Part shown: positions 30,630 to 51,305 of the stretch, in pieces
How positions within the stretch are numbered: the first letter of the stretch is position 1
Layout: every line of letters begins with the position of its first letter
NCBI GenBank assembly: GCA_032622095.1
Contig: CP136065.1
Coordinates: forward strand, 242,895,530-242,959,529
Length of the DNA: 64,000 nt
Direction: 5' to 3'
Source: Siphonodentalium dalli
Taxonomy: Eukaryota; Mollusca; Scaphopoda; Gadilida; Siphonodentaliidae
Notes under the pieces: model-generated
What the model was told of the DNA's origin: nothing
Seen by the model: the letters and a program-made list of their open reading frames with translations, nothing else
Databases searched by the model: none
Position numbers and translations under genes: made by a program

Positions 30630-30688
<59 letters not shown>
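30630..30688. repeat. (TA)n microsatellite at satellite/Helitron junction
   Basis: A pure TA run of about 29 dinucleotides lies directly between the last satellite monomer and the broken helicase reading frame. It is much longer than the TA runs inside the monomers (usually 8-14 repeats). Confidence 0.97.
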
Positions 30689-30691
<3 letters not shown>

Positions 30692-30710
30692 TCTTTCTGT
30701 AAAAAGATGC
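30689..30710. other. 8-bp stem hairpin at the Helitron breakpoint
   Basis: GCATCTTT (30,689-30,696) pairs with AAAGATGC (30,703-30,710) across a 6-nt loop. It sits exactly at the edge of the TA run and overlaps the last readable codons of the helicase, so it may simply be coding sequence. I do not claim it is a Helitron terminal hairpin. Confidence 0.5.
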
Positions 30711-31150: not shown

Positions 31151-32605
31151 TGATTGAAATTTTTTTTTTAAAGCAGAGGTTATAGTGACACTATTGATGT
31201 TAAATGCAGCTTTTCCTGTAAAAGCACAAAGAAGAATTCGTATATCATCAACGTTTTCACCAGTAATTGAACTCAGTTGTCTATGTAATCCTTGGTAAAG
31301 TGCTTTAATAAGTACAGAGTTTCCAACACCAGCTGAACCACATACAAAGGTATACATTGGTTCATCTTTTGTTTTATACCACTGAAGTGCATGATTGAAA
31401 AATTCTCTTTGCTTTGTATTGAGTTTTATAAGTAGTTGGTGGTAATCACTCTCAGGTATTCTAACTGGATTTGGGATAACTGTTGGAATAGAAGGAAACC
31501 CAAGTTCAGTTGCAATATCATAATGTCTGTGTTCAGTTATTCTACCAGGGTTGAAATAAACAACTTTTTCTGCTTCTGTTGGGTTTTGTGAATTGTCATC
31601 TGCTTCTTTTTGTTGGATATTTGTGATTAGTTGGTCATAAGCAGATAACTCATGTTCAGCTAGTTCTTGAGCAATATCTATTGCAAAAGCATTATGTTCA
31701 TATTCTTTGCATTTATAATCAATAGTTGATTGTATTGTTTGGTAATCAGTCTGGTAGGTTTCAAACCCGCCAAAGAGATCAGCCGATTCATCTCTCCAGG
31801 GAAAGAATAACATAAAGTTTTCTCTGTAGTGATTTTCTGCGTTTGTTTTGATATTGAATCTAACATATCTTATCACTTTTGATCTTTTCCCTTTACGTAT
31901 TTGCATTCCATTTTTCAGTTTGATAATTATACTGCCAGCATCAAAATCATCATCAATATTATCAAGATCAGAATGATCAAATTTGTCATTATTTTCAACA
32001 GTTTGATCAATGTTGTCCTCGGTTTCTTCTTTGCTCACATTTTCAGTGTTTTTAGGATAGATAATGTCATACTCTGCCAAACATATTCTTTCCATTACTC
32101 GAGGTCGTTTTGAGTATCTTTGAAATATATTTGTGCATTCAACATCTGTCGAATCGAGTGGGAGCTCATCCAGAAGATATTTTGGTTTCATCAGTACTAA
32201 TCTTTCTTCATGGGGTGGTGTGCTGATGAACACAACATCCATGGAAGATCGTGTAAGTGGCATTTGGAGTGTTAAATAAGCTGCCTCTTGTGCACTTATT
32301 ACAACACAGTTTGAGAAGATATTTCCAATATGTCTAACTTGTCTTTTCAAATCCATGTTTCCATCTCTAGCTTCTTTTGTAGCATTATTGAGTGTTGTTG
32401 ACATACCAGATTGAGACTTTGATATGTATGAAACTATGTACATAGCACAAGCATAAGGATCACAAATGTATTGTAAGTCCATGTTAGCTTGACAAGCATA
32501 TAAGAGGGATTCGTTGAAAGGATTTATTCTCACTTCTGATGGTTGTCGTTTTATGAAGACTTTTGATCCAGATAAAGAGCTTCGTATACACTTTATGTAT
32601 TCATC
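31127..32605 (-). pseudogene. Helitron fragment: catalytic tyrosine helix and helicase Walker A
   Basis: The longest open stretch (468 codons from 32,533; the frame extends upstream to 32,605). YICDPYACAMYIVSYISKS carries the catalytic tyrosine motif of Helitron Rep. Then come the conserved NCVVISAQEAAYL block, an acidic spacer, the YVRFN and PWRDE blocks, and the helicase start. Walker A reads GSAGVGNSVL; the usual GKS is GNS because codon AAC at 31,319-31,321 replaces Lys. This should abolish ATP hydrolysis in any helicase of this family. TGKAAFNINSV follows, then the frame breaks in an A9 run near 31,165. Confidence 0.92.
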
Positions 32606-33371
32606 TTAACTCATTTCAATAATGTTATGCAAAAAATCTTCAAATTTGATATTCATTTCATTTTTATTTTTGTCCATTTTCACTTGGATTTCTTTATATT
32701 GCTTCCGATAATCTTCAACATTTTGTTCTAGATGTGTTAGAATCATTGTTTTTGGCATAGGTGGGAGAGGGAAGCCAAAACGGCAGATAGCGTTCTGCTT
32801 CTTTCGACAAGTTTTTGTGGGTTTGTGTTCCTGAAGTTTGATAAGGCTTTCCAAAGTATTATCTGCACTAGAGCAAGTCAAGTGTTTGTCAACAAATGAG
32901 ATTACGTCATTAATATTGTTTTTGTCATATATAGGAGCACCATCTATCCATATCAATGAATGTATGTGGCCACTACCTCGATTTTGGAACTCTGTTCTTT
33001 GATATGTATCGACCAATTTACCAATTGGTGTGTGAGGACTTTTAAGCACAGTATTGATAAATTATTGGACTCTGTTACCAAAGTAACGAGCACATGTTAT
33101 AGGATCTTTTTGAATGAGTTTTGTTTTATCTTCCCAAGTTATTTTGTCAATATCATTACAATTAATATTTTTCCACCAAGTTCAGATAAAGTCTTTAATA
33201 AAGGTTTCCAATGAGTATCAGCAACACTTAGTGACATGAACCATGTCGGTAAGCCTAATTGTCTTATCATGGCAAACACTTCTTTCTTTTTAGCTACAAG
33301 ATAACCTGGCGAGTTTCTCAACTGTTTGAATATATATCCTTCATCTAATTGGACTAGGTCATAAATTGTTT
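32606..33371 (-). pseudogene. Helitron fragment: Rep N-domain and HUH motif
   Basis: LRNSPGYL and MIRQLGLPTWFMSLSVAD mark the Helitron N-terminal domain. A frameshift near 33,150 leads to KDPITCARYFGNRVQ, an in-frame TAA at 33,062-33,064, then FINTVLKSPHTPIGKLVD and YQRTEFQNRGSGHIHSLIWI. The HIH pair is the metal-binding HUH motif of Rep and is intact. CRFGFPLPPMP, another hallmark, follows. The fragment ends at a TAA (32,606-32,608). Confidence 0.9.
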
Positions 33372-34187
33372 TTGATTTCTAATTTGAGCAGCTGTAATTG
33401 TTTTTCCTTAATTTTACATTTTCTCATTGCAAGCCACACTTTATCACTTATTTGTTTCATTTGTAATGTTTTAAGTTTGAAAAATATATTTGGTACACAT
33501 TGAGCAGCTCGTCTATCAGCCCCTCTTAGTTCCCATTTGACAATGTCGCTGTAATGAACTTTTACAAGTCTCTCATAGTTTTCTATTCATGTTTGACCAC
33601 ATAATATTGTTGGAAAGCAAAGAGTTTCAGCATTTGTTTCCTGATAGAGACTAACTGGGTGTTGTCCCTCACCAGGAGCAAACGTGTAAACATTATCACA
33701 TTTGTTAGCCATACAGATATCTTCAACAAGTGTATCTGGATTTCCAGCAGATGTCTCGTTAGTATCAATTTCACTGAAGTGGTCAGAATCAGAGTCATTT
33801 GATCTGTCTTCTATGTTGTGTGAGGTCAGATTTTCAGTGTTATTAGTTTGTGGTGTAGTGGTATTTGCTGCCGTAATTTCATCAAGACTATCCTCTTTGT
33901 TGTTTATATTACTGATCCAGTCATTATTTATCGATATTTCAGAATCTGTGTAAAGGTTGCTGTTTGACATGAGCCATTGCAACATTTTCAGTATAATCAC
34001 TTTTTTTGTTGGATATTCTCTTTTTAAGCTTGACTGGCACTATGAAATGTTCATCAAGTGGTCTTGGAAGGGAATTTACAGTTGGCTGTATATCAACTGG
34101 TACATTGACAAAATTACCTTTTAATGAGTATTGTCTCCCAGAGGGAAGTTTTGCATAAAAGGTATACGTGGACAAATTAATCTTTCC
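33372..34187 (-). pseudogene. Helitron fragment: GNFVNVPVD to KWELRGADRR region
   Basis: The first part (34,187-33,990) contains LPSGRQYSLKGNFVNVPVD and PTVNSLPRPLDEHF, a highly conserved Helitron block. A frameshift near 33,990 leads to LQWLMSNSNLY, an acidic Asn/Asp-rich linker, then YTFAPGEGQHPVSLYQ and a TGA at 33,587-33,589. The same frame continues through YERLVKVHYSDIVKWELR and GADRRAAQCVPNIFFKLK. The TGA sits where Arg is common, so a CGA to TGA change by CpG decay is plausible. Confidence 0.85.
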
Positions 34188-34737
34188 TCAACTTACCTCA
34201 AGAGTTGTAAGGTTCAATTCATCAGGTATTTCAACCCACTTCTTCCCATTAGTAACTGATAATTTTGGAACTTTATTCTTTTTAACTGAGTTCAAGCATG
34301 TGTGACATATCCATTCAAGATTATCATGTGATTTAAGACCAGTAAAATATTGTATGTTTTCAGGTGTGGATTGGCTGATTGGTTTGACACTTCTATGGAA
34401 CCATGGCTGTGTGCAACAAGTACAGATATACACAGGACCAAAAGAAATGGTTTGATTAAAAACTTTCAATACATTCTTAGAGTGTTGAACCATACCTTTT
34501 TCGGTTATATAATTGTTTCTCTTTTCTGACAAAGGTATCAGTCTTGACGCAGTTTTTGTTATTTTGTCTGACAATTTATCTCCTTCATACACATTATTTG
34601 TTTGTCTATGTCTTTTCTTTCCTAATCTTTCTTTTTCCTTTTGAATAGTACTGTCTCTTGACAGATTGATTGACAAACAACGGTAACCCATATTGACATT
34701 GTCGCTGGGACCCAATTTTTGGAAGAACGAAGACACC
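34188..34737 (-). pseudogene. Helitron fragment: N-terminal Cys-rich region
   Basis: About 182 residues. A basic, charged N-terminus (KEKERLGKKRHRQ near residue 34) is followed by Cys at residues 105, 107 and 108 and WICHTC near 142-146, a probable zinc site. It ends LNLTTLE, then GAG-GTAAGT and a TGA. GTAAGT is a good splice donor, so a small intron is possible, but the same frame reopens downstream and a stop mutation is simpler. The frame stays open a few codons upstream of the GTG at 34,736, so the true start is not fixed. Confidence 0.85.
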
Positions 34738-34942
34738 CATCCAAATTATACCTATCAGAATATATAATCAATTATAGAAGTTATTACATGTATATATCAA
34801 CTAGTATTATATGGCTTATATATGGAAATTTCCACTTTAGAAAGAAAAGTAGTTTATAAACAATTGTCTATGTTAGTGTGTGTATAACAAATATTGTGTA
34901 AATTTCAGCTTTACACCAGGGAGTAAATAAGTATTTTGTTTC

Positions 34943-35116
34943 GCATAGCAAAATGCTATGCAAATCAGAAAACAGACAAACGAATCAGTCAATTTGAATA
35001 TATGCAATTGAAAACTTGATCTAGTTCATTAAAATTGTACAGTTGATAGCAAAATGCTATAGGAATTATTAAATTGTAAAACAAAATTCAATATTTGATT
35101 AGCAAAATGCTAATCA
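34943..35116. other. Triad of palindromic hairpins, copy A
   Basis: Three inverted repeats share the core TAGCAAAATGCTA: GCATAGCAAAATGCTATGC (34,943-34,961, 8-bp arms), ATAGCAAAATGCTAT (35,046-35,060, 6-bp arms) and a 21-bp one at 35,096-35,116 (9-bp arms, TGATTAGCA / TGCTAATCA). The outer arm bases differ between hairpins but stay paired within each. Confidence 0.85.
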
Positions 35117-36602
35117 ATACCAATTATTGTATGTCCTACTTAACACTCTACTGTGGGTATAAATTTCTACTGTTGGCATAAATGTTCAAAGGTAATTTCA
35201 TGGGTTAAACATTTTTACCGATAGTAATAAATCCCTTCTCTACATTACAATGCAATATATATTTAGGGCCAACAATTTGTAGATTCAAACCAGCTGTATC
35301 CCTTTGAGTAAACCTGTGTTTACAAGTGAAAATTCTGATAATTTGTAATTTTGAGCTGACTTAAGGTTTGAACTTCTGACTTGCAAGATAGAAAATGGGA
35401 CACATTTCATCATCTTTATCTCACAATTGGGAACCATGAATTAAAGTTGCATTGGTTAAATTGAAGAAATGGAGATGAAATTTTCATATGAAGGAATATA
35501 TTAGTCGTCCTGACAGAGGAGTTGTTTGGAACCTTCCAAATAACAGCACTTGGATAGCAATCAATGAGTGCCTGATGTTTATCCTGATCATGATACTTAA
35601 AATACACATATAAAAATTATTATGTTGTTAATGCCTTCAAGCTATAAGCAGTAATGAGGATGAGATGTCAAGATGTGGGGATCCTGGATTTATCATCTGT
35701 ACCGCACACAAAACTAGTTTATGCCATAACATATTAATCACAGGTTTACTCAGACTCCTTGAATTAATGAACAAGCCTGCGTGCGTAATTAAACTAACAA
35801 TATTATTTGAAAAGTGAAAAGGTGCTGAAGAAATACTTTCTCATCAAAGAACTTGAAGAAATCGAACAACAATGTTAATAGCACAAACAATGAAAATACA
35901 ACTGTCAGACTACAGAACATCAATCGCAGATGAAACACAGATCAAATATTAAGCCAAAACTTAGAAGTGAACACTAATCCTAAATATAAGAACGTCTGTA
36001 GAACCTTCAAGAGCAAAACACAACAAATCAAAACATAGAAGTGAACACTTATCCTAATATAAGAATGTCTGTAGAACCTTCAAGAGCAAAACATAACAAC
36101 CTGCTTTGATGAAATTTTAACACCATATAGCTGCCTGAATGTAAGATTCAAGCTTATGTCCATTGACATGAGCTATTCCAAACAGAGACATGTAATTAAT
36201 ATTAGTCTCTAACTTATCTGACATGGTTTATCAGATTAAAATGTGAATGCACCTAGTGGTCAACAACAATAATAAACAGATAGTGTTTTCCTCTGCTTGT
36301 AGATGTGTTAAAACACAGATGTGTCACTGCCACACCATTTTAATTAATCATCTGTGAGAGAATGTAAATATAAGGTGCTGAGATAATCATCCATGAATTA
36401 TTCTGGCATGGGCAGGCAATGGGCACCTTATGATTATGTCAATGTATAAGTTCAATTTAATTACTGCGGGTTTAGGAATAGAATTACTGATATCAAGTAA
36501 GGAGATACTGATAAGCTGATGATGATAATATTTGTTCTTTCTTTATGAGTTTGATGGGATATAACAACATTAGAAGGAAACAAGAGGTACGCTGTCGCAT
36601 GG

Positions 36603-37450
36603 CATTTGCCCCCGACCGTAGCAATTCGGATTAAGCATGGACGAAACTGCGGATATCCGAGGAGGTCTATAAAGAAGTTCGTACAATCATCACTTCTAGA
36701 AATTCCGGAAACCCCCAAAAAAAAGCGATCCGGAAACCCCAAAACAAGCGAAAATTATAATTTTCTAAGTTGAAAAAAGGGCCATAACTCTGGCAAAAAT
36801 CAGATCATACCCAAATTCGCACATGACATGTATTTTCATATAACTGATGCACAAAAATACGGGATTTGCAATCATACCACTAAAGCACACGTTATCATCT
36901 GGAAACCCAAAAAACAAGAGAAAAATTGAATTTTCTAAGTAAAAAAAGGGCCATAACTCTGGTGAAAATGGGTGGACGAAACCCGCGCTATGCATGTAGC
37001 TGTTCCCCCATGCTGCTCTATCGCCATACCAAATATCAGCTAAATCTGCCTAGCGGTTGCTGAACAATAATGCAAAATGTTTGTGCGGACGGACAAAATT
37101 GAATTTTCTAAGTCAAAAAGAGCCATAACTCGGGTGAATATGGGTGGACGAAACCCGCGCTATGCATGTAGCTGTTCCCCCATGCTGCTCTATCACCATA
37201 CCAAATATCAGCTAAATCTGCCTAGCGGTTGCTGAACAATAATGCAAAATGTATGTACGGACGGACAAAATTGAATTTTCTAAGTCAAAAAAGGGCCATA
37301 AGTCTGGTGAAAATGGGTGGACGAAACCCGCGCTATGCATGTAGCTGTTCCCCCACGCTGCTCTATCACCATACCAAATAAATGTTTGTACGGACGTACG
37401 GACGGACGGAGACTATATACCCGCCGACTTCAAGTCGGGGGCATAATAAA
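36603..37450. mobile_element. MITE-like non-autonomous element, copy A
   Basis: Ends pair as short terminal inverted repeats: TTGCCCCCGAC at 36,606 and GTCGGGGGCATAAT at 37,435. A 3' hairpin (GCCGACTTCAAGTCGG) lies inside the right end, preceded by ACGGACGGACGG. The interior has four ~172-175 bp tandem units beginning near 36,778, 36,948, 37,119 and 37,294, each with GGGCCATAACTC or a variant. There is no coding capacity. Similar elements are, as I remember, very common in bivalve genomes. Confidence 0.7.
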
Positions 37451-37702
37451 TGGGGATATCACATCAATATTAATAAAGATAACTTGAAAAAAGGGGCCAT
37501 AAATATGAACATTGATTGCAGGAAAAATAAAGGAACTTGACAATAAAATACAAAATTTTCAATCTGAATACCAGTCATCCAAGAACCCTCCATTCTTTAG
37601 AAAGAAAAGTAGTTTATAAACAATTGTCTATGTTAGTGTGTGTATAACAAATATTGTGTAAATTTCAGCTTTACACCAGGGAGTAAATAAGTTTTTTGTT
37701 TC

Positions 37703-37876
37703 GCATAGCAAAATGCTATGCAAATCAGAAAACAGAAAAACGAATCAGTCATTTTGAATATATGCAATTGCAAACTTGATCTAGTTCATTAAAATTGTAC
37801 AGTTGATAGCAAAATGCTATAGGAATTATTAAATTGTAAAACAAAATTCAATATTTGATTAGCAAAATGCTAATCA
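37703..37876. other. Triad of palindromic hairpins, copy B
   Basis: The same three hairpins at 37,703-37,721, 37,806-37,820 and 37,856-37,876, unchanged in stems and loops relative to copy A even though flanking bases have changed. Confidence 0.85.
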
Positions 37877-39288
37877 ATACCAATTATTGTATGCCCTACT
37901 TAACACTCTACCGTGGGTATAAATTTCTACTGTTGGCATAAATGTTCAAAGGTAATTTCATGGGTTAAACATTTTTACCGATAGTAATAAATCCCTTCTC
38001 TACATTACAATGCAATATATATTTAGGGCCAACAATTTGTAGATTCAAACCAGCTGTATCCCTTTGAGTAAACCTGTGTTTACAAGTGAAAATTTTGATA
38101 ATTTGTAATTTTGAGCTGACTTAAGGTTTGAACTTCTGACTTGCAAGATAGAAAATGGGACACATTTCATCATCTTTATCTCACAATTGGGAACCATGAA
38201 TTAAAGTTGCATTGGTTAAATTGAAGAAATGGAGATGAAATTTTCATATGAAGGAATATATTAGTCGTCCTGACAGGAGTTGTTTGGAACCTTCCAAATA
38301 ACAGCACTTGGATAGCAATCAATGAGTGCCTGATGTTTATCCTGATCATGATACTTAAAATACACATATAAAAATTATGATGTTGTTAATGCCTTCAAGC
38401 TATAAGCAGTAATGAGGATGAGATGTCAAGATGTGGGGATCCTGGACTTATCATCTGTACCGCACACAAAACTAGTTTATGCCATAACATATTAATCACA
38501 GGTTTACTCAGACTCCTTGAATTAATGAACAAGCCTGCGTGCGTAATTAAACTAACAATATTATTTGAAAAGTGAAAAGGTGCTGAAGAAATACTTTCTC
38601 ATCAAAGAACTTGAAGAAATCGAACAACAATGTTAATAGCACAAACAATGAAAATACAACTGTCAGACTACAGAACATCAATCGCAGATGAAACACAGAT
38701 CAAATATTAAGCCAAAACATAGAAGTGAACACTAATCCTAAATATAAGAATGTCTGTAGAACCTTCAAGAGCAAAACATAACAACCTGCTTTGATGAAAT
38801 TTTAACACCATATAGCTGCCTGAATGTAAGATTCAAGCTTATGTCCATTGACATGAGCTATTCCAAACAGAGACATGTAATTAATATTAGTCTCTAACTT
38901 ATCTGACATGGTTTATCAGATTAAAATGTGAATGCACCTAGTGGTCAACAACAATAATAAACAGATAGTGTTTTCCTCTGCTTGTAGATGTGTTAAAACA
39001 CAGATGTGTCACTGCCACACCATTTTAATTAATCATCTGTGAGAGAATGTAAATATAAGGTGCTGAGATAATCATCCATGAATTATTCTGGCATGGGCAG
39101 GCAATGGGCACCTTATGATTATGTCAATGTATAAGTTCAATTTAATTACTGCGGGTTTAGGAATAGAATTACTGATATCAAGTAAGGAGATACTGATAAG
39201 CTGATGATGATAATATTTGTTCTTTCTTTATGAGTTTGATGGGATATAACAACATTAGAAGGAAACAAGAGGTACGCTGTCGCATGGC

Positions 39289-39962
39289 ATTTGCCCCCGA
39301 CCGTAGCAATTCGGATTAAGCATGGACGAAACTGCGGATATCCGAGGAGGTCTATAAAGGAGTTCGTACAATCATCACTTCTAGAAATTCCGGAAACCCA
39401 AAAAAAAAGCGATCCGGAAACCCCAAAACAAGCGAAAATTCTAATTTTCTAAGTTGAAAAAAGGGCCATAACTCGGGCAAAAATCAGATCATACCCAAAT
39501 TCGCACATGACATGTATGTTCATATAACTGATGCACAAAAATACGGGATTTGCAATCATACCACTAAAGCACACGCTATCATCTGGAAACCCAAAAACAA
39601 GAGAAAAATTGAATTTTCTAAGTAAAAAAAGGGCCATAACTCTGGTGAAAATGGGTGGACGAAACCCGCGCTATGCATGTAGCTGTTCCCCCATGCTGCT
39701 CTATCACAATATCAAATATCAGCTAAATCTGCCTAGCGGTTGCTGAACAATAATGCAAAATGTTTGTACGGACGGACAAAATTGAATTTTCTAAGTAAAA
39801 AAAGGGCCATAAGTCTGGTGAAAATGGGTGGACGAAACCCGCGCTATGCATGTAGCTGTTCCCCCACGCTGCTCTATCACCATACCAAATAAATGTTTGT
39901 ACGGACGTACGGACGGACGGAGACTATATACCCGCCGACTTCAAGTCGGGGGCATAATAAAT
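39289..39962. mobile_element. MITE-like non-autonomous element, copy B
   Basis: Same terminal inverted repeats and 3' hairpin as the element at 36,603, but with three internal GGGCCATAA units (39,462, 39,630, 39,806) instead of four. Unit loss within the tandem core explains most of the length difference between the two large duplicates. Confidence 0.7.
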
Positions 39963-40099
39963 GGGGATATCACATCAATATTAATAAAGATAACTTGAAA
40001 AAAGGGGCCATAAATATGAACATTGATTGCAGGAAAAATAAAGGAACTTGACAATAAAATACAAAGTTTTCAATCTGAATACCAGTCATCCAAGAAGCC

Positions 40100-40850
40100 T
40101 CCATACCAAATATAAGCTAAATAGTCCTGATGGTTCTTGAGATCATTTAAGAATAAATTACTATGACGGGAAAGAGTTATTTATGTCCCTGGTTCTGCCT
40201 TTATTTAACCCATTGACCCCATTTGAACAAATCTCCATACCAGTCACCTTGGGAACATCCACACAACATATGAATCCATTCAGTCCTATGGATCGGGAGA
40301 ACAGTATATTTCAATTCCAAGAAGTGCTGAAAGACGAATGGCTAGATGAAGGGACGGGTGGATGGACGATGGACGAGGAGTGTTTACTATAGCTCCAATT
40401 TCCATTTATAATTTTTTTTTTTAATTGAGCAATGAATTCAATGTAGAATTTTTTTTCTAAGAGTTAAGTCCCTGGCTCCGCCCATATTTAACTCAGTGAT
40501 CTCATTTGAACAAATCTGAATCTCAGTCGTGTATGGACTCTCTATACCAAATATAAGCTAATTAGGCCCAATGGTTTTTGAGAAGAAAGTGATTTCAGAA
40601 TTACCATGGAGGGAAAGAGTTATGGCCCTGGTTTCGCAACTATCTGACTTGGAGACCTCATTTTAACAAATATGATTAACAGTTACCTAGGGAACATCGA
40701 CAAAAAAATATGAATCCATTCGGTCCTATGGAATTTTAGATGTTCAAAGAATTGTTGACGGACGGACGGATGGACGGACGACGGACGAGGAGTGATGGAT
40801 GACTATAACTCCACCGGAGACTTCGTCTCATGTGAGCTAAAAGATATGAA
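40100..40850. repeat. Two diverged ~440-bp related elements
   Basis: CCAAATATAAGCTAA occurs at about 40,106 and 40,546. Each copy continues with GGGAAAGAGTTAT, CCCTGG, ATTTGAACAAATCT-like text, ATGAATCCATTC and a GGACGGACGG-type run near its end. The second finishes with CCGGAGACTTCGTCTCATG, a short hairpin, then GAGCTAAAA. They look like old copies of a non-coding element family related to the one just upstream. Confidence 0.65.
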
Positions 40851-40872
40851 GAGATACGTGATTCATTTACCT

Positions 40873-41310
40873 CAAGTATGTTTTGATAATATACATATAC
40901 GCCTAAGTAGGGGTTCTGGATAATTGGATATAATCTTCTCCGTACTGCAAAGTGTTCCAGAATTTTACATCCACGGGATAACACAACGTTACGAAGTCCG
41001 TATAACCACTGCACAATGATCGTTGGACATGCATCAGCCCGTCTATGGTACTTCTATATGCACAATATAACTGTGCTGACGTGGCACAGTCTATTCCAGC
41101 ATCAAGAACTGCGTAGTAACTGAATGTGGCACATATAACGCTCTTTATACTATTACAATAATGCGAAACGCTCTTTAATGCTACGCCACAGGTCACCATA
41201 TTGTTTATTTTTCGCACATTATGTATCGTGGGAACCATTATATGCGTGTTGGTAGACCGAAATGATAAATTGCGGATACTTCTTCTTTTTCCGTTACAGT
41301 CCACCATCAA
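40873..41310 (-). CDS. Unrecognised ORF, possible exons (weak)
   Basis: A 135-codon ORF starts at 41,310 on the minus strand with Cys-containing segments such as NMVTCGVALKSVSHYCNS. Upstream, CATATATTAG at about 41,330 could be an acceptor. An overlapping frame ends at CTTGAG-GTAAAT (donor near 40,872). I recognise no domain. In AT-rich non-coding DNA an ORF this long can occur by chance, so coding status is unproven. Confidence 0.2.
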
Positions 41311-42316
41311 CTTGCTGGTGATTATGACTAATATATGTTGGCAACGACTGGCGATAATTTCTCTTCAAGATTAGGGTTTGTAATAATATAATTGTAATTG
41401 ATTTGATTTGAATTTGAATTTGGAAGTCATGATTAGTTGATTGGATTCTTTACGGGTCGAATGGGTTTTCTGGGACGTCCAGCATGGATTTAGTTGGTTC
41501 ATCATCCTGGTCCTGAACTCATCGACTGGAATGATGGTGACTATTTCAGTTGGTATAGCATTCCATTCACTTGTCAGGTCTGGGTGAACCTGAAATGTAG
41601 CTACTATTAGCTAGAACTAGCTATTATTGCTCGTTCTGGCTATTAAAAATCGGTCTGCATTGGGTTTGTGTGAATGCCTGATGTAAACAAGATTTTTCCG
41701 AATGTCAACCACCACCGAATCTGATTCGGCAGATTGAATAACGGATTTAGACGAAGATTTCCGAAACTCTGAGTCCAACTTTTTATCGGAAAATAGACTA
41801 AAAGACCAGAGAATTCAGCTTAACTATATTTATAATGTGAGTATTTTAATAACCGCCTGTTATTCATCTTTTTGTGTCAGAATCTTCAGCCCATGGTCTG
41901 ACAATATTCGCCATTTTGATCAAGATATATCACGTGATTTAAATGACCAATCGAATTTAAGAAATAAGATTTTAATCGATATTACTCCTACTTACCTCGT
42001 CGGTTTAAAAAACTACGGAAAGCCGATTCGTTATACAATACAGTTTTAAATAATTACACTCTAATTCGGATATTAATTAATACACAGAGACAACAAAGTG
42101 TGCATTGGATGTTTAAAGGCAGGAACAAAAGCATTCGTTGCTATAACCTGGAATAGATTATTGCTATGAGATACAAATTGTCGAAATGGCAATGATTTGC
42201 ACACGTGGGTGACGATAATGACATTCCTCTTGAATAATGTATTGATATATTAGCAAAGAAATACTATTGAAGCAGTTATATGATAAATTGATGAAAATAT
42301 TTATATATTGTAGATC
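41311..42316. other. Gene-free stretch upstream of the DUF6589-like gene
   Basis: No convincing coding sequence. A perfect minus-strand splice donor (GACGAG-GTAAGT) lies at about 41,996 and a short palindrome TAGCTAGAACTAGCTA near 41,611. TATTGTAG just before 42,314 could be an acceptor for an untranslated first exon of the plus-strand gene. Confidence 0.4.
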
Positions 42317-42509
42317 ATGTCAGGGAAGCGAGGAAGACCGACAACGGTTGGCACATGCGGTTGCAATAAGCATGAAGAATTTACCAGTTCATTGGCAACT
42401 CCATCGTATGTAGTAGAAAAGATCACCAGCGGAAGAATTAAAAAGAAGATCATCAATGTGCTGAAACAACATGGCCATATCACTGCACACCAGCTGTTTC
42501 TGTGTACAG
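42317..42509 (+). CDS. DUF6589-like gene exon 1
   Basis: Begins ATG-TCA-GGG (MSGKRGRPTTVGTCGCNKH) with a GRP motif resembling an AT-hook and a CxC pair. It ends at ACAG-GTAAGT, a near-perfect donor, phase 1. The last codons and exon 2 give FLCTGCAAYAEEN. Confidence 0.75.
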
Positions 42510-45500
42510 GTAAGTGCTGTTTTTTTGACACACATTAATTACTTTTGATACATGTGAGCATAATGACTGGTTATCATCTTAAGTAGCTAACTAAATGGGT
42601 AGCTTTTGTGAGTCAAACATTATGAGTACCTGCATTTACAATAGAACCCAAGTCCCTCCCCCAATCAACGACGCTACTGTTCCAGGCCATATCAACGGAA
42701 ATTACGATTACAGTTGTGTGACATTAAATATACCGGTAAATAATTAGTTGTCAACTTATATGTTTGTAATGTTTCACTTTAATATATTTCTCTTTTTTTA
42801 TTTTTGCATTAAATAGGTTGTGCCGCATATGCAGAAGAAAACTTGCTGGGAGAGATTACATCCGAAGCAATGATGGTGGATACCGACCAAACTACGATGC
42901 CAAGCGTAGTGACAAGAATCCGAGAATGCGACGATTCCGAGGTTTGTTCAGTAGTGTCTAAATAATGTCACCAAAAAGCATAGCATCTCAATTGAGTTAT
43001 TTCAGTTGTGCATACTGAGAAAAATACGGATGCATGTGCCTATAATTGAAGCAGATGTCGTTAACAATAAAAATTCCACTATTCCACAAACTGACATATA
43101 AAGAGTAACTATAGCTACCCCCTGTGGTATACTGTATATTGTTATGCATTAATGGCATACAACTGTATATAGGGATACTATTTCCATGTAAAATTTGATA
43201 TAGGTTTGTGGTTTTCGTTGATAAGGTATTCAATTGTGGTAGAGCACAGGGGTGGGTCTTCAGTGAACCATCATGCTATATCACAAACATTTGTGGGGCT
43301 CTGAGTCCAAACATCATTCTGGCATGGTCTATGGAAACACTAAGCCTACCTTAAAAGTCTTCTATATATTTATTCGTCCTCATTTATCAAACGGAACACA
43401 TCGACAGTCACACAATTACGACCGATGGTTCAAATATTATGATGTATTTATCTTTTGTTTCAGATAACCGATATAGCAGCAGCTCTTGGCGAACGCCTGT
43501 CTGGTTCTGTGTTTGAAGACACTAAAAATCTGCGTCATCGAGCAGATGATATTAAGTTGATGATCGAACCGAAGCACTTTCTTGCAGCAGCAAACCAAGC
43601 CATCATAGCCTTTTTGGCAGCAGTAACGGCGGTCAACATCAACAGTCGGGAAACTCCACCGAAAAAACTCTTATCTCTGGCGCTGGCGTATGATCAAATC
43701 TTGTACACAGGATCCCTCAATTTTATAGGTTGAATGCAAATAATCATCGAGAAAACGCATTGCTTGATACACGAGTGGTGAGCCGGCTACATATGGGATT
43801 AATGTATAACCCCGTATTCAACATGTTATGCCAATGAAGTAGCCATCACCATAATGTAACCAATTGCATGACAGTTTAAAAACAAAATGCTGATAAAATG
43901 TCCAGACAAAATTGTGTCCATGGACAGACGGATTGAATGGACAGACGGACGAACTAACTGAACATTATTATCTTCACGTGCAGTACAATACATAGAGTAG
44001 AATGTAATTTCTACATGTGTAATTGTGGAAGCTAACCAGCGTTGTATTCATACAAGATTTGTCTATATGCTCTTTTTCAGGTCCTATATCTTTCTTCATC
44101 ACAATCATAACATATTTCGTCACTGCAAGCAAAACATCAACATCAACATCAACATCAGCGCACCAATCAGACCATCAGCAGCGTACAAGTCAATCTTGAA
44201 ATGGTTTAACATTTTATCAGCCAAACCACTGCCAACACCACAAGAAGGATCTGTGATAACATTTGTGGACAACAACCAGGTCGTTGGAAAGCGCTGGAAG
44301 GTTTCAGCTGATTCTAAGGCAGAAGTCAGCGTCACCACAACTCTCGTCCACTTCATCCCGAATTTTCAACTCAACATGCAATTCAATATCGACCTCTCTC
44401 CAGCACATTGGCTAAATTTTAAAAACTTTAACTCCATTCGCAAACTTCCATCTGTCAACACTACCTGCCGATCCATTATTTCATCTTTCCGAAACAAGTT
44501 TCTATCTGAGCGCATTGCGGCTGTACATCGTGACCAACGACACAACAACGGTTTATACACAGACAGCATCGATGCATCGATCATCAGTGACCCATCAGCC
44601 GCAGACTTGCCGCACTCCGATCAACCCACCGACCCTTATGCCGAAGTACCAGAGTTTCACCAGCCACCACCTCAGGTAATCCTAGGAGATCCGATAATGC
44701 TAAATCCGTCACCCCACCAGTCGATCATGGATGTACTACAGGAAATCCAACTCCGCCTGTTAACACATCGATCGTGGACAATTGTTGGTGGTGATGGTGT
44801 TCCATTTCTCGCCATCTGTAAATTGATCGACACTATATATAAATGTCCAATATGTCAGGAACTCATTAACGGAGAAGAGACGTGCAACAAGCACCTGAAA
44901 TCTTCTCACGACACCTCCATTGCCAAAGACATCATCACTCATCATCGTTGCTTCAGAGCAACATCATCCCAGTAGCGGGGCTCGGCCACTTGGAAATTAA
45001 CACATTACGCCTGCTTTTCCGACTGCTGTGGGATGTTATTCTGGTGGACCTGGCGAAGATGCTCGGCTTTAACTCACCAAAGGCGTTAGCAACTTGCCGA
45101 GCTGCTTCCAATCATCACAAGTCTTGGCAGATACTGCAGATCTTTCTTCATGGTACAGCTGACGAACTCCTTCCTTTCTGCCGTTTTTGTCTAACACGCT
45201 GCATACCACCAACACTAGAGAACTACAACCAATGGATCAACACAGTAAGAAACCCTAACTATGCCTTTATGAACGAAAACGTCTTGGAGTATATCTATAC
45301 GCTCCATCTGTTCCGCTCTGCCGTCCGTCGAAATAATTCTGTTCTGATCAACCTCACAAAACTGAAACTATCACCTCTCTTCTATGGCACATTCCATCCA
45401 CACTATCAGGAACTTCTGCTGCGGGAACGAATGACCATCGCACAAGCGCCAACAGATGTCTCCACCTTTCTGATCAAAACCCAATCGATGAGTGTCTCTG

Positions 45501-48500
45501 GACATCCCAGCCAAGGCGAAGATGGTGAATTCATCCTTGAAAGCAGAAATCGACGGATTAAAATGTGTTTGCCACCGGGTGTGCCCGACGAACGTAGATG
45601 GGTGAGAGCATCGAGGACCTTTGATGTGGTGGAAGAGGTGAATATAATTATCTTACAAAACGTCGCTCATCTACTAACTTCACAACGTATGTCACTAATA
45701 TGTGCTTCTTGGTACAATCACGAGGTTTGCACCACAATCACCAACTGCTCGCAATACTATCTAGAGATCACTGTTTTTCTGCCGGTAAATTCAGCCATCT
45801 GCAGGTCTTGAACGCACATCAGTATTATTTCTAGGTCAGTTTTCGACTGAATTTGTACAATGCTATTATTTAACAACCAATACGCGAATATCAAAGAAAC
45901 CATGAGCCGTAGTAAATGCGTGGCATAGCTCGCTGCAAACACCATGACAGGCTTTAACGCTGCCATAATAAATACGATGAAATTCAGCAAGTTCAACGGA
46001 GGTCGGCGTGTATTGTGTAAGATATACTGCATAAGTTCAGAATCTCCATTGGCAATCATAATCGTGCTATTGATTGTGTGTTCCGATCAAATTTGATTAC
46101 GACATTCACAATTCTACATAATAATAGTAATATTGAACCAACCACGTTTTTTTCCATAAGAACGCTGAGACACACGACTGTGGATGGAATATCCGCATAG
46201 GAACTAACCCGTGCGCTTCCTCACATTGTGTATGTGTGAAGTGGAAGTATCATCATCATCAACAGCAATAATAACAATAATGATAACAATAATAATACTA
46301 ACAACAACAACAACAACAACATCATCATCAACACAACAGAATGATCAGGATCACCAACGAAGTCTACACAACCAAATCCATTGCTATTGGAAAACATCAT
46401 TTGCAAAAAGAGTAAAGATGAACTACTAGAAACATTTATTGTTTTGCATCATACAACAGATGCCGATGGTATCTGCACGCCCAATTGATTTTATTTCTGA
46501 TGACTTTATGGTCACCGAAGATTCCCACGCAGCCCGAGTGTACCCACTTATTGCACCCCGTCATACCACGGCACTCTAGCCACACCCACCAATGTTTTTG
46601 TCCGCTGGTGTGTCGTGTGTTACCCCACACATCTTGCAGTCGTGGTAACCACTTAGCTCATGTTCTTCGGCCTCAGTCTGTGTCTTCTCTGCGAAGTGTT
46701 TAATGGTGGGATCGATTGGACCAATCTGCAATTACAGTAATGTTCAAATCATTACACATTAATACATAAAAAACATGAGGGAATTCATAATTTCAAATAT
46801 TATTAATTTGCTCATTGGGTGAGGACGGTGGAGCGTTGGTGTTTATGGAGTACATCCGAACTCGTCTTCCCTTTACAGCAAATGAAATGAAATATATATT
46901 ATCGGTTGAGTGACAGCTACCTAAATATTAGTTAGTATGAATGTTTATAATAAGACTATGGTTCAAACTTACAGACGCTGACGTTGATGGCCCTGCCGTA
47001 CCTGGAGCAGATGGCTCGGGTGTGACGGGATCAGTTGTCGGTGATGATGCGTCTGTTATTGTTGAATTAAGAACATGTAAACATGTGGATAATTAATTGT
47101 TGCGCACTAGTGTTTTCCATTGACTACAATTCCTGATACATCATCATTTTCTACAAATTATATGAACAAATACCAGAGGAATTCCTATCATTTGCTTGCC
47201 TAATAACCACACTGGTCAATGGTTACAATCCGTGTGAAGAAATATACGGTGAAAATAGATACATTAATAACTATACCTGCTCATCCCTGTTTAATTTGTC
47301 CATATCTATCCGTGCATGTGTGAAGCAACTACTGCCTTTTGGTGTGCATTCCTGTAATATACAAAGAGTTCAGTTTAACTCGGATTGCCAAAACTTTTGA
47401 GAGTTAAATTGTTGTTAATTACCAATATAAGCATGCATATCACCACAGTTCTAGTATACAATTGTGCATTATACTAACCTTGAAAACCTCCGCCCATTCA
47501 ATGGTGCCCAATGGTAACTTCTGCCAGACGGCACCCGCAATGAGAGAAAAACTTCGCTGCCAGTCATGACAGCAAGCTCGAAGGCCTTCAAGAACAAAGC
47601 CATAATTATATTGCAGTATTACAATGAAAACACATAAGGGTTAACTCAGATCAAACATTTTGAATGTGTGCCATACTTTTGTGGAAAAGAGTCTACTCTA
47701 TAAAATAATAAGCATGTCCATGTCACATAATGCTCACTGTTATGTTCACTTTAACAAAATATCGTTTAACACTAATCACATACTTATAATTTTGGTACAG
47801 GCAATGAAGACTTTCAAGGGGAGGATATGTGGCAGGAACTCCATCGACATTTTCGATTTACCATCTGAGAATGACGGTGTCATTGAGTTTGAAATGGATG
47901 ATGATGCCGACAGTGAAGATTTGCCAACCATCAGAACTGAAAGCCAGCATCAAGTTCGTCAGAGGCCCATTGCTCGAGAGGTATCTATGTTTGTCACAAA
48001 TAGTTATTCTCGAACTGGTGCCTATTGGTAATGCCATGCTAACCCTAGAGGCTATATGTTAGTTATGTATATAATATATATAACATTATGATTTAACTTA
48101 ACTACACATATAACATGATTTTTGTGTGGTATTATTAATGCGATAATATTATATCACGTAGTCTAGCATTTCACTCTCCCCTTCAGAACATTGGAACGAT
48201 TAATTTGTATGCCAGCCATTGGATATCTATTTTGTAATTCTCCCTTGCCATGTCGAAGAATATTATCTTTTCCTTATTCTCTTTAGTCGATTATCAATGT
48301 CAAATCCATAAGGGTGAGTATGTGCTCATGACCATTGACCATACAAAGACTTAGAATATCAAAAATAACAAACCACATTTACATACATTTCACAGCAATT
48401 TACAATTAGGTATGTATTTCGCAAATTAGGTTCTTCGATGGAGACAGGAACTGAGGAAGACTGGATACCTACTCAACGATCCACAATCCAGACTACCTCA

Positions 48501-49548
48501 TACAAGTATGGGCGGTGTGGAACTGAGTAGCCAGTTGGAGCATTTCAACAACTTTTGCTCCGACTCCATGTCTTCCTACTATTCAAACTCCATCGAGAAA
48601 GCCAAATTCGGCATGCCAGACAGCAATGGGACTCTGACCATCACTCAAGAGGAAGAAGAGGCTGCAAAAGATATTTGCAATAAGAAGAAACCGGAATTGG
48701 TCAAGATGGCGACACCAATCTTGAAACAGATGCGAATGAGTGGGTATGTCGAGGAAAGCTATGGGATGAAAGTCAGATGGGATCAGGGAGTGAAACGGGC
48801 ATTAAAAAAAGACTTGGTGCTCTTCGTTAAAGATTTGCAGGAGATGGTGAAGGAGCAGCAATTAAGGGTAGATGAGCATATGCGCCAGATGTGTCCTGGG
48901 CAGAGGTGAGTTTTCAGTGTCATTGAACAAGTCCATTAGTAATAATACATGAGACATACGATCAGTTCTGTCTATCAATCTTATATAGTAAATGTTTATG
49001 ATGTCCCATCTGTGTATAGTTGTCAAGTAAACACATGGTGGAGTCCGCAATTTCTCATATATGTTTTGTAAAGTCCAGAAAACTTAAAAAAATATTTGGG
49101 AGTTTAATCAGACTTACTTTAATAAATATGGTATCTTTCCTCCCACTGAGCTGGTTATTTCGTTTTTCATTCTTGGCCACAAATTTCACTGGTATTTCCC
49201 CCCTGTGGTGTTCGACGGCCCTAGAAGACTGCCCCACTTGGTTTTTGCCCTGGTTAAATTTCGGGTGTACATCTAGTAAGCGACTCTGATATGGAGAAAT
49301 ATTAAGTATCAACATTGAACATCATCATAGTTTACACACGTTTCTACATGTAAGAAAACATCATTTAAATTCTCACTCCAACCTCTTTTACCCCAAAACA
49401 CATTGATTGTATCTTTTACTATACAATTCGTTCTCTTAAATGTCTCGTAGACAAGAAAAAGGACGCATATTGATATGTTTACACTACCACTGTTTTCAGT
49501 AAATTAAATATTTTTTGTCGTTACAGCTTTCCATACATCGCAGAATGA
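42317..49548 (+). CDS. DUF6589-like protein gene, seven exons, two frame breaks
   Basis: Seven exons with GT-AG junctions join in phase: 42,317-42,509, 42,817-42,941, 43,464-43,728, 44,081-45,637, 47,801-47,980, 48,430-48,905, 49,527-49,548. The total is 2,818 nt; two missing bases in exon 4 would give an exact 940 codons including stop. Ordered motifs match an uncharacterised invertebrate protein family that I believe is filed as DUF6589: CxC near the N-terminus, NFIG-PISF at an exon join, FVDNNQVVGKRW, a C2H2 finger, GLGHLEIN, HHKSWQILQ, VRRNN, GHPSQGEDGEFILES and LPPGVPDERRW. FVDNN, GGDGVP and GHLE supply acids (44,268, 44,793, 44,993) that could be a DDE triad; that is inference. Function is unknown. 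Intron 4 and the 3' introns hold exons of an opposite-strand MADS gene. The apparent one-base deletions could be decay or assembly error. Confidence 0.7.
42817..42941 (+). CDS. DUF6589-like gene exon 2
   Basis: The acceptor follows a T-rich tract (TTTTTGCATTAAATAG). It enters in phase 1, encodes CAAYAEENLLGEITSEAMM and MPSVVTRIRECDDSE, and exits in phase 0 at GAG-GTTTGT. Confidence 0.72.
43464..43728 (+). CDS. DUF6589-like gene exon 3
   Basis: The acceptor is TTTTGTTTCAG. It encodes ITDIAAALGERLSGSVFED and a likely helical AAANQAIIAFLAAVTAVN segment. It ends LNFIG at ATAG-GTTGAA (phase 1), so that GPISFF continues in exon 4. Without this splice the frame stops at TGA 43,732. Confidence 0.72.
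44081..45637 (+). CDS. DUF6589-like gene exon 4 (core domain, two -1 frame breaks)
   Basis: The acceptor is CTCTTTTTCAG. The exon is read as GPISFFITIITYFVTASKT, then shifts frame around the ACATCA repeat (44,140-44,190) into SILKWFNILSAKPLPTP and FVDNNQVVGKRWKVS. A C2H2 finger (CPIC, 12 residues, H, 4, H) lies at 44,845-44,905. A second shift near 44,920-44,965 leads to AGLGHLEINTLRLLF and the rest of the domain. Both shifts move the frame as a single-base deletion would. The donor is GAAGAG-GTGAAT, phase 0. No nonsense substitutions occur within the read frames. Confidence 0.75.
45757..46059 (-). CDS. Unrecognised 100-codon hydrophobic ORF
   Basis: An ATG-started minus-strand ORF with two hydrophobic stretches (LLNFIVFIMAALKPVMVFAA and LLRLMVSLIFAYWLL) that could be membrane helices. 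It lies in intron 4 of the plus-strand gene, downstream of the MADS gene. No homology recognised; chance ORF is possible. Confidence 0.2.
   Translation of the reverse strand: MIANGDSELMQYILHNTRRPPLNLLNFIVFIMAALKPVMVFAASYATHLLRLMVSLIFAYWLLNNSIVQIQSKTDLEIILMCVQDLQMAEFTGRKTVISR
46245..46345. repeat. Trinucleotide-rich microsatellite
   Basis: Interrupted runs of ATC, AAT and AAC triplets in intron 4 of the plus-strand gene. ORFs predicted across it are low-complexity and not coding. Confidence 0.9.
46435..46440 (-). terminator. Possible polyadenylation signal AATAAA
   Basis: AATAAA on the minus strand (TTTATT on plus) overlaps the stop codon of the PHD-like exon. Overlap with the stop is unusual and would give a very short 3' UTR, so it is only a candidate. 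Confidence 0.3.
46436..46725 (-). CDS. MADS gene exon 5: PHD-like zinc finger, one frame break
   Basis: The acceptor is TGTAATTGCAG. The first frame reads IGPIDPTIKHFAEKTQ and ends in a CKMC knuckle (YHDCKMCGVTHD). After a slip at the A5 run in GGACAAAAACATTGG the second frame reads HWWVWLECRGMTGCNKWVHS, GCVGI and NWACRYH. Together they give C-x2-C, C-x5-C, H-x2-C and C-x2-H in PHD order, with a wide second knuckle. The stop TAA (46,436-46,438) overlaps AATAAA on the same strand. Confidence 0.55.
46436..49315 (-). CDS. MADS-domain protein with PHD-like finger, five exons, minus strand
   Basis: Exons on the minus strand: 49,285-49,118 (or from ATG 49,315), 47,585-47,479, 47,351-47,277, 47,052-46,973, 46,725-46,436. 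The first two join in phase 0 into a full MADS domain: RGEIPVKFVAKNEKRNNQL, SGRKDTIFIK, then AFELAVMTGSEVFLSLR and PSGRSYHWAP. This aligns without gaps to the SRF/MEF2 pattern (SxRK, KAxELxxxTGxxV, GxxYxxA). MADS domains bind CArG-type DNA as dimers. A Ser/Thr/Pro linker leads to a PHD-like zinc finger. Between exons 2-3 and 3-4 and inside exon 5 the frame slips as if one base were missing each time, so this is either a decaying gene or a mis-called one. Animals normally have only SRF and MEF2; this sequence matches neither closely. Confidence 0.65.
46973..47052 (-). CDS. MADS gene exon 4 (probable linker)
   Basis: The acceptor is CAATAACAG, the donor is GCGTCT-GTAAGT. One frame gives a low-complexity linker, DASSPTTDPVTPEPSAPGT then AGPSTSAS, and leaves in phase 0, which fits exon 5 exactly. 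Its entry phase (1) does not fit exon 3 (0), again by one base. Confidence 0.45.
47277..47351 (-). CDS. MADS gene exon 3 (probable)
   Basis: The acceptor is ATATTACAG, the donor is GAGCAG-GTATAG. Its only open frame encodes ECTPKGSSCFTHARIDMD and KLNRDEQ, entered in phase 0, whereas exon 2 exits in phase 2. If splicing is literal the protein would stop after RNAHQKAVVASHMHG. A missing base near the junction would restore the longer product. Confidence 0.45.
47479..47585 (-). CDS. MADS gene exon 2: C-terminal half of MADS domain
   Basis: After TTTGTTCTTGAAG it reads AFELAVMTGSEVFLSLR, VPSGRSYHWAPLNGRRFS and ends at CAAG-GTTAGT in phase 2. The join with exon 1 gives IFIK-AFEL, the exact place where SRF has MKKAYEL. 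It forms the dimerisation strand and turn of the MADS fold. Confidence 0.72.
47801..47980 (+). CDS. DUF6589-like gene exon 5
   Basis: Exactly 60 codons from TTTTGGTACAG to GAG-GTATCT, phase 0 on both sides. It encodes AMKTFKGRICGRNS, then an acidic stretch (FEMDDDADSEDLP). Its assignment to this gene rests on matching phase and order; it also lies inside intron 1 of the minus-strand MADS gene. Confidence 0.6.
48430..48905 (+). CDS. DUF6589-like gene exon 6
   Basis: 158 codons plus 2 nt. Begins VLRWRQELRKTGYLL after AAATTAG, continues MGGVELSSQLEHFNNF, a GTLTITQEEEEAA segment and a long charged helical C-terminus. It ends CAGAG-GTGAGT, a strong donor. The open frame, charge pattern and strong donor all support coding. 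Confidence 0.65.
49118..49285 (-). CDS. MADS gene exon 1: N-terminal half of MADS domain
   Basis: Reads HPKFNQGKNQVGQSSRAVEH, then RGEIPVKFVAKNEKRNNQL and SGRKDTIFIK, ending at AAA-GTAAGT, a perfect donor, phase 0. TTTCTCCATATCAG before 49,285 could be an acceptor; otherwise the ATG at 49,315 in the same frame is the start. Basic residues and the RK pair correspond to the DNA-contacting helix of MADS proteins. Confidence 0.7.
49527..49548 (+). CDS. DUF6589-like gene exon 7 (terminal)
   Basis: A pyrimidine-rich acceptor (TTTTTTGTCGTTACAG) followed by C-TTT-CCA-TAC-ATC-GCA-GAA-TGA. With the AG left from exon 6 it encodes SFPYIAE and stop. It is too short to be certain. Confidence 0.4.
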
Positions 49549-49900
49549 GCAACGATATGCACCCCGCACGTGAATGCGCGTGATTCTGCGATAATCCGGT
49601 ACGTTTTGCACACGGGCCTTTCCATGATGGACGTAAAAATGATTTTTGTGCAAGTTTCAGGAAAGAATATCTTGTAAAACTGAAAGACTTCGGCTTGCTG
49701 ACTCCCGAAAGTGCAAGGTTTCGCTCACAAAAGTTTTATATTATCTAAATTTACTAGTGTTTTAGTCCCAAAAGTTATATTTGACTCATATTTTGTGCAA
49801 TTTTTTGCGTCTTCAGGAAATTTCCAAACCTACCATTGCCACAGGCCAAGTTAAAATGTGACTCTGGTAGCCCGGAAATCAACTGAACCGTGATTTGATA
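49549..49900. other. Gene-free stretch after the DUF6589-like gene
   Basis: No convincing ORF, repeat or polyadenylation signal. It may hold the 3' UTR of the plus-strand gene. Confidence 0.4.
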
Positions 49901-50170
49901 GTCTAAAACCAAACCGGCTCCCTGGACTGACTCTAAAACCAAACCGGCTCCCTGGACTGACTCGAAACCAAACCGGCTCCCTGGACTGACTCTAAAACCA
50001 AACCGGCTCCCTGGACTGACTCGAAAACCAAACCGGGCTCCCTGGACTGACTCGAAAACCAAACCGGCTCCCTGGACTGACTCTAAAACCAAACCGGCTC
50101 CCTGGACTGACTCGAAAACCAAGTCGGCTCCCTGGACTGACTCGAAAACCAACCCAGCTCCCTGGACTGG
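49901..50170. repeat. 30-bp minisatellite, 9 units
   Basis: Nine tandem units of the form CTCGAAAACCAAACCGGCTC followed by CCTGGACTGA. Variation is mainly T/G in CTCTAAAA versus CTCGAAAA, with one-base indels at 49,963 and 50,037. Minus-strand ORFs here translate the repeat in several frames and are not genes. Confidence 0.97.
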
Positions 50171-50934
50171 CAGGAACAAACCAATGTAAAGAGTCCACTG
50201 CTAACTGATAATCTTTCGGTTATTTGCGGGTCAACAGAAATAGTTAGGATAGTAGAATGGCTAATATTTCTTCCGTTATAGAAAGGTTTAATCAAATGAT
50301 AAATGTATACGTAAATTATAGGGTAATCGATTTAACCTTGAAATTCACTCAGTGTCAATTAAGGTTGTAATTAATTAATATGATTTCCCGGTAGGCATTA
50401 CGATTCATATGTTTTAGAATGGTAGAAAATAGTATTATTCGTAACTGAAAAATACATATTAGTTCTTCTATTACGATCATAGTTTTGATGAAACATAAAT
50501 ATTCAATGCATAAAGTGTTAGACAATACTTATGAAACTTTGCAGTTTGCAGAGGATCAAACTTGTTATCTGACTCGTGGAATGTAATCCGGAAAATGGCT
50601 GCGCACGCGTAAAGCGTTCAACTTTCACTGACTACTGTATACATATGGCTGATAATAAAACACAATACTAGTAATAGCTGATAAGCCAACCCATCACTAT
50701 TCAGTAATGTAATACTAATTTCGACCATTCTAAAACATGAATCGGCATGCCTTTTAAGACACAAAAGAACAAAGCTGCTTGTATCACAGTGAAAACTCAA
50801 ATGTATGTACATGTAAAAGTAAAACATCTTATGGCATACGTTTTGGTAACATGTAAGGCGTGAAATTGTCCAGTCACTTGTAAACACAGTTTTTGTTTTA
50901 ACAGGTGAATCCGTACATTACGACAATACAGTAC

Positions 50935-51305
50935 CAGTCAGAAGAAGTGGTATATTGAGGTGCGCCTTTATTGCGATATTGAGCGCGCTTAATTATAGCG
51001 CAATACCAAAATTCTGTCGTGCCTACAATTGCGATATTAAGCGCGCTAAATTTCATAAATTACGATAGTGTATATTTATATTAGATAAATAATGTGCATA
51101 TGGTGTACATATAGTGTACATATAGCATTTACAACTATAATAATACACACATCTAAAACATTGTCTCTATTTATGCAATAAACAATATAGAAGCAATAAT
51201 TTGATTTAAATGTCACAATTTTGAGCGCAATATGTCGCAATATTAAGCTCGAAATATTGCGATATTAAGCTCAAAATATTGCAATAATACCACGCGCTTA
51301 TAACC
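50935..51305. mobile_element. MITE-like patch with repeated GCGATATTAAGCGC motifs
   Basis: GCGATATTGAGCGCGCTT (50,974) and GCGATATTAAGCGCGC (51,031) face TATTAAGCTCGAAATATT and GATATTAAGCTC near 51,240-51,275. The outer GGTATATTGAGGTGCGCC and AATAATACCACGCGCTTA are roughly inverted. The CG-rich ends around an AT-rich core suggest a small, old inverted-repeat element; boundaries are uncertain. Confidence 0.4.

Follow-up and report, generated by a model that had tools for sequence, protein, structure and literature searches.

A decayed and truncated DNA transposon copy occupies positions 41575–49903 of a 64,000-nucleotide stretch (the window) of the genome of the scaphopod mollusc Siphonodentalium dalli (assembly GCA_032622095.1, contig CP136065.1, positions 242,895,530 to 242,959,529, forward strand). 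It is very probably a dead copy of a cut-and-paste element that carries two interlocked genes on opposite strands, one for a putative DDE-type transposase and one for a partner with a MADS domain and a PHD-like finger (MADS-PHD). A preliminary description of this DNA had placed two spliced genes on opposite strands at 42317–49548, those exons of the minus-strand gene being at 46436–49285, with exons of each gene lying within introns of the other; upon re-reading, with AG/GT borders, both the coordinates and the mutual interleaving were found as described. The genome searched comprises 2.23 Gb in nine contigs, with the window on contig C5 (from 242,895,530), and loci elsewhere in this genome are given here with L numbers. 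The features of the window copy, with the evidence for each in brackets, are:

41575–49903, no strand: transposon copy with an intact left and a truncated right end (seven other copies start matching at window 41568–41575; end alignment)
41575–41639, plus: left terminal inverted repeat, CAGGTCTGGG..., inner limit approximate, right partner missing in the window copy (7 left and 13 right ends aligned)
42317–42509, plus: transposase-like exon 1, with start codon and GT donor (matches L021, 97%, and L024, 40%)
42817–42941, plus: transposase-like exon 2 (phase fits exons 1 and 3; L021 match)
43464–43728, plus: transposase-like exon 3 (matches in L021 to L029, some weak)
44081–45637, plus: transposase-like exon 4, with the motifs FxDNNQV, GxDGxP and GHxE, frame broken here (open reading frame list and family alignment A1)
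47801–47980, plus: transposase-like exon 5 (matches in L021 and L024)
48430–48905, plus: transposase-like exon 6 (profile match in 16 of 16 loci)
49527–49548, plus: short last transposase-like exon, ending in TGA (acceptor and phase; last exon of L022 at the corresponding position)
49563–49625, minus: probable first coding exon of the MADS-PHD gene (start codon and phase-0 donor; resembles a stretch of L024)
49118–49285, minus: exon for the N-terminal half of the MADS domain, MADS-PHD gene (profile matches in 15 of 16 loci)
47479–47585, minus: exon for the second (C-terminal) half of MADS, with a broken frame here (SRF-TF 3.6e-4, below cut-off; profile matches in 6 of 16 loci)
47277–47351, minus: MADS-PHD linker exon (69% identity to L024, 91% to L021)
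about 46973–47052, minus: MADS-PHD linker exon with uncertain borders (L021 match only)
about 46436–46731, minus: last MADS-PHD exon, PHD-like finger, frame broken here (Pfam PHD match at 6e-4, under the cut-off; recognised by profile in all 16 loci)
49905–50169, no strand: 30-bp tandem array outside the element, at the expected site of the right terminal repeat (Tandem Repeats Finder; not there in 13 other right ends)

The exons previously described in the window have proper AG/GT borders, and their splice phases had been said to support each gene model apart from one-base slips. Both genes are broken in this copy: plus exon 4, the minus exon at about 47.5 kb and the PHD exon each change frame. 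Elsewhere in the genome, copies with open frames over the corresponding stretches exist. Because of the likely upstream minus exon at 49563–49625, the last plus exon would also sit within a minus intron. As for the right side of the element, 14 of 15 other copies stop matching at window 49903 and one at 49900, and beyond this point the other copies continue for about 80 bases to the inverted repeat of the left end (13 right ends aligned), the outermost CCTG being reached by 12 of the 13 (L017 does not reach it, and L004 has an internal gap). Since the others run on to the right inverted repeat while a tandem array stands in its place here, the window copy is truncated; no inverted repeat of its right end was present among the longest 25 of the 47 repeat pairs. 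The transposon together with its left flank (window about 39605–49903) recurs about 472 kb away at approximately 96% identity (C5:242.463–242.473 Mb), and this shared flank implies that the window copy has also been duplicated segmentally.

With window positions 42301–49600 as query, the long copies in the genome are mostly 87–98% identical, with weaker pieces down to 67%, and relatives for which both ends were read are about 7.4 to 8.5 kb long. Terminal inverted repeats are present in seven of the nine loci L021–L029 (perfect over 56–58 bases in L021), and the inverted-repeat pairs, which were detected without a motif, all start with CAGGTC(T/G)GG (7/7). In the window family, four of the five copies whose two ends were fetched show perfect 5-bp target duplications (ATTAT, ATAAC, TTTAT and GTATA), and so do all six other families with both ends (GTTTC, ATTAA, GTTAT, TTAAA, ATATA and GTTAT), where those of L023 (ATTAA) and L027 (ATATA) were read from the flanks by eye and the script gave four-base matches only. 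Pooled over all families, this amounts to perfect duplications in 10 of the 11 elements with both ends read, a count made without L026, L029 and L041–L046, for which both ends were not obtained. Interspersed copies with fixed ends, terminal inverted repeats (TIRs) and a constant 5-bp duplication are among the features by which cut-and-paste (TIR) transposons are recognised, and a Helitron- or Crypton-like element without inverted repeats is ruled out by the repeats on the other copies. That the two genes have evolved, or moved, as a unit had been proposed from the window; the interleaved pair does recur at other loci, together with terminal inverted repeats and 5-bp target duplications, which bears this out.

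The extent of this recurrence was followed by running profiles of the separate parts over 16 loci (the window, L021–L029 and L041–L046), which were picked from genome search matches and are thus not a random sample. In 13 of the 16, including the window, the order is interleaved, i.e. transposase core on the plus strand, PHD on the minus strand, C-terminal exons on the plus strand and the N-terminal half of MADS on the minus strand, and this layout spans transposases down to 35% identity (35–40% between families). A layout that recurs this often goes beyond chance. It is not universal, as L042, L043 and L045 show: in these three the C-terminal plus exons precede PHD, which is a plain tail-to-tail arrangement (the MADS N-terminal half of L045 was not found by the profile). 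In a phylogeny built from the transposase core (LG+G4 with ultrafast bootstrap, midpoint root, no outgroup; a small set of 16 loci with close pairs among them), L043 groups with L041 (support 100) and L042 with L045 (100), the latter pair adjoining the interleaved L025 (100). By parsimony on this tree, where the three tail-to-tail loci fall within interleaved ones, the distribution suggests that interleaving is the older, ancestral state and was lost twice.

A genome-wide search with queries of the L022 type returned 59 matches to the MADS N-terminal half, 37 of which are followed by a MADS or PHD exon no more than 8 kb downstream; of those 37, 32 also have C-terminal plus exons on the opposite strand within the same distance, and all 32 (at 31 loci) are interleaved. 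This count leaves aside the 27 of 59 that lack a needed part, and the search does not list divergent families without interleaving. The preliminary description had suggested looking in related genomes for the same two genes in the same order, and had held that their repeated co-occurrence at different loci would show a mobile two-gene unit; within this genome that order was encountered both in 13 of 16 loci and in 32 of 32 testable matches. Transposase and MADS exon matches of several families are clustered on contig C6, at about 67.4–71.8 Mb.

In contrast to the broken window copy, L022 (contig C1, 249.07 Mb) is a young element of about 7.4 kb, whose inverted repeats are about 240 bp long and 99.6% identical. 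Its transposase has five nearly identical copies, from which it follows that this family moved recently. The plus gene of L022 has an open frame of 705 codons that runs into a GT donor, followed by exons reading IRKNIEEQ..., ITRPVQAIG..., ESMQCKTK... and EPIIEDQ...PLESD-stop, whose phases (0, 0, 1 and 1) fit as judged by eye. The minus exons (...RTLFKS, LNEICTQTG...HGVE and ...CPKHR-stop) are all in phase 0. Both genes are therefore open and phase-consistent across the exons found, which on the minus strand do not include the start exon, and the intron that splits the MADS domain contains the C-terminal plus exons. Compared with L028, to which its core is 64% identical in amino acids, L022 shows synonymous divergence (pS) of 0.74 to 0.95, i.e. 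at or near saturation, versus nonsynonymous divergence (dN) of 0.12 to 0.40 in every compared exon on both strands; for the cores of L023 and L029, dN/dS is 0.078. With synonymous change near saturation while dN is low, the comparison indicates purifying selection on the exons of both strands.

The plus gene appears to encode a transposase-like protein. The family alignment A1 holds three conserved motifs, FxDNNQV, GxDGxPY and PGxGHxE, that point to a D, D, E triad of a possible DDE-type core. The last two motifs lie about 30 residues apart in L023 and L027 (our own count), which are without a C2H2 finger, while the other members of A1 have one between these motifs. The preliminary description had called the gene DUF6589-like, and this stands only as a remote resemblance: five of eight relatives match the Pfam family DUF6589 (PF20231) with E-values of 3e-5 to 2e-3, but all of them under the cut-off (the best score among the eight is 23.3 bits versus a curated cut-off of 27). 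In four of the five matching relatives the GHxE region falls near profile positions 130–160, whereas L024 matches elsewhere in the profile. Set against six true DUF6589 proteins encoded in this genome, the family gave no match in a shallow profile comparison by hhalign (E 0.6, with a reversed control at E 0.33). With Pfam below cut-off and the profile-profile comparison negative, membership of DUF6589 is not accepted, and the protein is best described as remotely similar to it. No relative was confirmed in viral contigs or prokaryote genomes.

The minus gene encodes, as judged from its predicted product, a MADS domain split by an intron and then a PHD-like finger. The MADS identity given in the preliminary description is supported by L022, the spliced minus protein of which matches SRF-TF at 1.6e-6 and 27.8 bits, above the cut-off of 26, whereas the MADS C-half exon of the window scores below this cut-off on its own. 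The match in L022 bridges the junction between the two minus exons on either side of the plus exons, and the best match of the same protein in PDB is SRF (1hbx, E 0.013). The donor of the MADS N-half is conserved in 14 of 14 loci tested (L044 and L045 left out), and the spacing of cysteines and histidines in the finger is PHD-like by eye.

From these features the following mechanism may be sketched. The transposase, with candidate catalytic residues in FxDNNQV, GxDGxPY and PGxGHxE, would bind the ends, excise the element and join it to the target with a 5-bp stagger. The MADS-PHD partner would bind DNA as a dimer, probably at two-fold symmetric sites within the terminal repeats of several families, and might read or tether chromatin, thereby helping or regulating transposition, while the exons of each gene would leave as part of an intron from the pre-mRNA of the other. 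The symmetric sites in question are dyads near positions 24 and 43 of the inverted repeats in several families, the arms of which differ by family; a protein that binds as a dimer, as MADS proteins do, would account for them. Upon mononucleotide shuffling of seven left ends (2000 shuffles, any gap of 0–5), the share of shuffles reaching the observed number of dyads was 0.0305 for the window, 0.0015 for both L022 and L024, 0.0005 for L025 and 0 for L027; for L026 it was 0.15, i.e. often matched by shuffles, and for L023 it was 1.0. The sequence CTA-N3-TAG in the repeats resembles a MEF2 site, which is a hint only. Since interleaving looks ancestral and has apparently been undone twice, interlocking of the two genes seems to be tolerated and long-lived rather than essential.

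A number of observations weigh against this reading. Among the 11 elements with both ends read, one (contig C8, 8.97 Mb) has mismatched flanks. Matched against PDB, the family profile of the plus gene finds zinc fingers only, at E 0.1 or worse, and no transposase. No known domain crosses the junction of transposase exons 4 and 5, so that the plus exons of the C-terminal part might belong to a gene of their own. The PHD match of L022 (20.7 bits, E 4e-4) is below the Pfam cut-off of 24, and the selection test took the PHD exon of L028 as two pieces, its frame being broken. The MADS C-half is recognised in only 6 of 16 loci, so that elsewhere it is by order and homology that N-half and PHD are assigned to a single gene. 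Finally, binding of the repeats by the MADS domain is a guess from the dyad symmetry, and the repeats of L023 and L041 are without such dyads.

An element of the same composition could also work differently, with the MADS-PHD protein repressing or silencing transposition and the antisense overlap of the pre-mRNAs acting as a brake on copy number. The layout does entail overlapping antisense transcription units, and MADS and PHD are generally known as regulatory domains, but the conservation of the protein between families would suit a helper at least equally, and such a role is rather unlikely. We regard as improbable that there are three genes, i.e. the transposase core, a separate downstream plus gene made up of the C-terminal exons, and the MADS-PHD gene, in which case the interleaving would be between that third gene and the MADS gene. 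The core and the C-terminal exons are indeed non-contiguous in all 16 loci, the junction is without a known domain, and the second codon of window exon 5 is ATG; against this, all 15 loci tested (the 16 without L045) have an in-phase GT donor at one and the same position at the end of the core, and the next exon of L022 starts with a phase-matched acceptor and has no ATG at its start. A host gene pair spread by segmental duplication, without any transposon, would fit the left flank that the window copy has in common with the copy about 472 kb off, but the flanks of the other copies are unrelated, and these copies have sharp ends with inverted repeats and 5-bp duplications, which makes this account very improbable. 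Two unrelated mobile elements nested by chance at this locus are hardly conceivable, given that (while both genes are multi-copy in the genome) order, strands and interleaving recur in families only 35–40% identical in their transposase.

A cut-and-paste transposon with an interlocked transposase and MADS-PHD partner may be compared with several known systems. The Academ superfamily (with AcademH and AcademX; Kojima 2020, as described in PMC10045372 and PMC10799480) likewise consists of DNA transposons that encode a second protein besides the transposase, but its target duplications of 9–10 bp (AcademH) or 3–4 bp (AcademX), as given in PMC10045372, differ from the 5 bp of the present element. 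No Academ-type helicase or nuclease occurs among the Pfam matches of ten window pieces, eight core open reading frames and two spliced proteins, a scan that did not extend to other open reading frames. Because of the 5-bp duplications and the lack of helicase or nuclease in the scanned proteins, the element is not filed under Academ; a distant common origin is possible. At three loci with true DUF6589 proteins (L030–L032), an open reading frame for a DEAD/RecQ-type helicase lies on the opposite strand some kb downstream (by Pfam in L030 and L032, by eye in L031), and these pairs possibly resemble AcademH-type elements, the transposase of which we infer to be DUF6589, the family to which the present transposase bears its remote resemblance.

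RAG1-like/RAG2-like (Transib-type) transposons likewise have two genes per element, 5-bp duplications and a partner with a PHD finger, according to the available portions of PMC4411706 and PMC7204232. There, RAG2 is a Kelch-PHD protein, the RAG-like gene order is described as convergent (PMC7204232) or, at the sea urchin locus, head-to-head (PMC4411706), and those portions mention neither MADS nor interleaving, whereas the present partner is MADS-PHD. Pfam gives no Kelch match in the spliced MADS-PHD protein. By its PHD-bearing partner and 5-bp duplications, the RAG-like transposon, as far as these sources portray it, would be the nearest functional analogue. The MADS-box factors SRF and MEF2 share the SRF-TF domain with the present element, in which, however, it lies within a transposon and is followed by a PHD-like finger. 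The ends of hAT elements often start with CAG. The Pfam scan of eight relatives listed no hAT family; 5-bp target duplications as in the present element are given for hAT5 in PMC12730594.

Our best call is that the element represents a new lineage, and possibly a new superfamily, of cut-and-paste transposons. In its full form, i.e. a new DNA transposon superfamily with CAGGTCKGG ends, 5-bp duplications, a MADS-PHD partner and interdigitation as its ancestral, long-conserved layout, this claim could about equally turn out right or wrong. In the literature searched, where screening mostly stopped short of full texts, no MADS-encoding transposon was recognised, and the term DUF6589 was absent; a prior Repbase entry for the element is conceivable.

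The remainder of the window is rich in other repeats. Positions 1–30000 hold a satellite-like array with repeat distances of 817 and 823 bases and a higher-order spacing near 2458 and 4915, and 30000–42000 contains direct repeats spaced by about 2.5 to 2.76 kb as well as a 172-bp tandem repeat (36922–37380). Another interspersed repeat at 50377–51293 is 82–87% identical to the approximately 40 places scored, and a 41-bp tandem repeat at 63667–63917 has six copies at 99%.

To our knowledge, mutually interleaved genes have usually been treated as rare accidents of a single locus. Here, the two interlocked genes move together and have been retained across deep divergence, with apparently independent returns to the plain layout. 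The finding carries a warning for annotation, in that a single copy would pass for two odd host genes, and it adds a MADS-domain protein to the known partners carried by transposons. The reason for such persistent interlocking (compactness, protection against separation or mutual antisense control) is now open to study. If the proposed reading is true, this would be a mobile unit whose two genes no simple exchange can part without breaking both.

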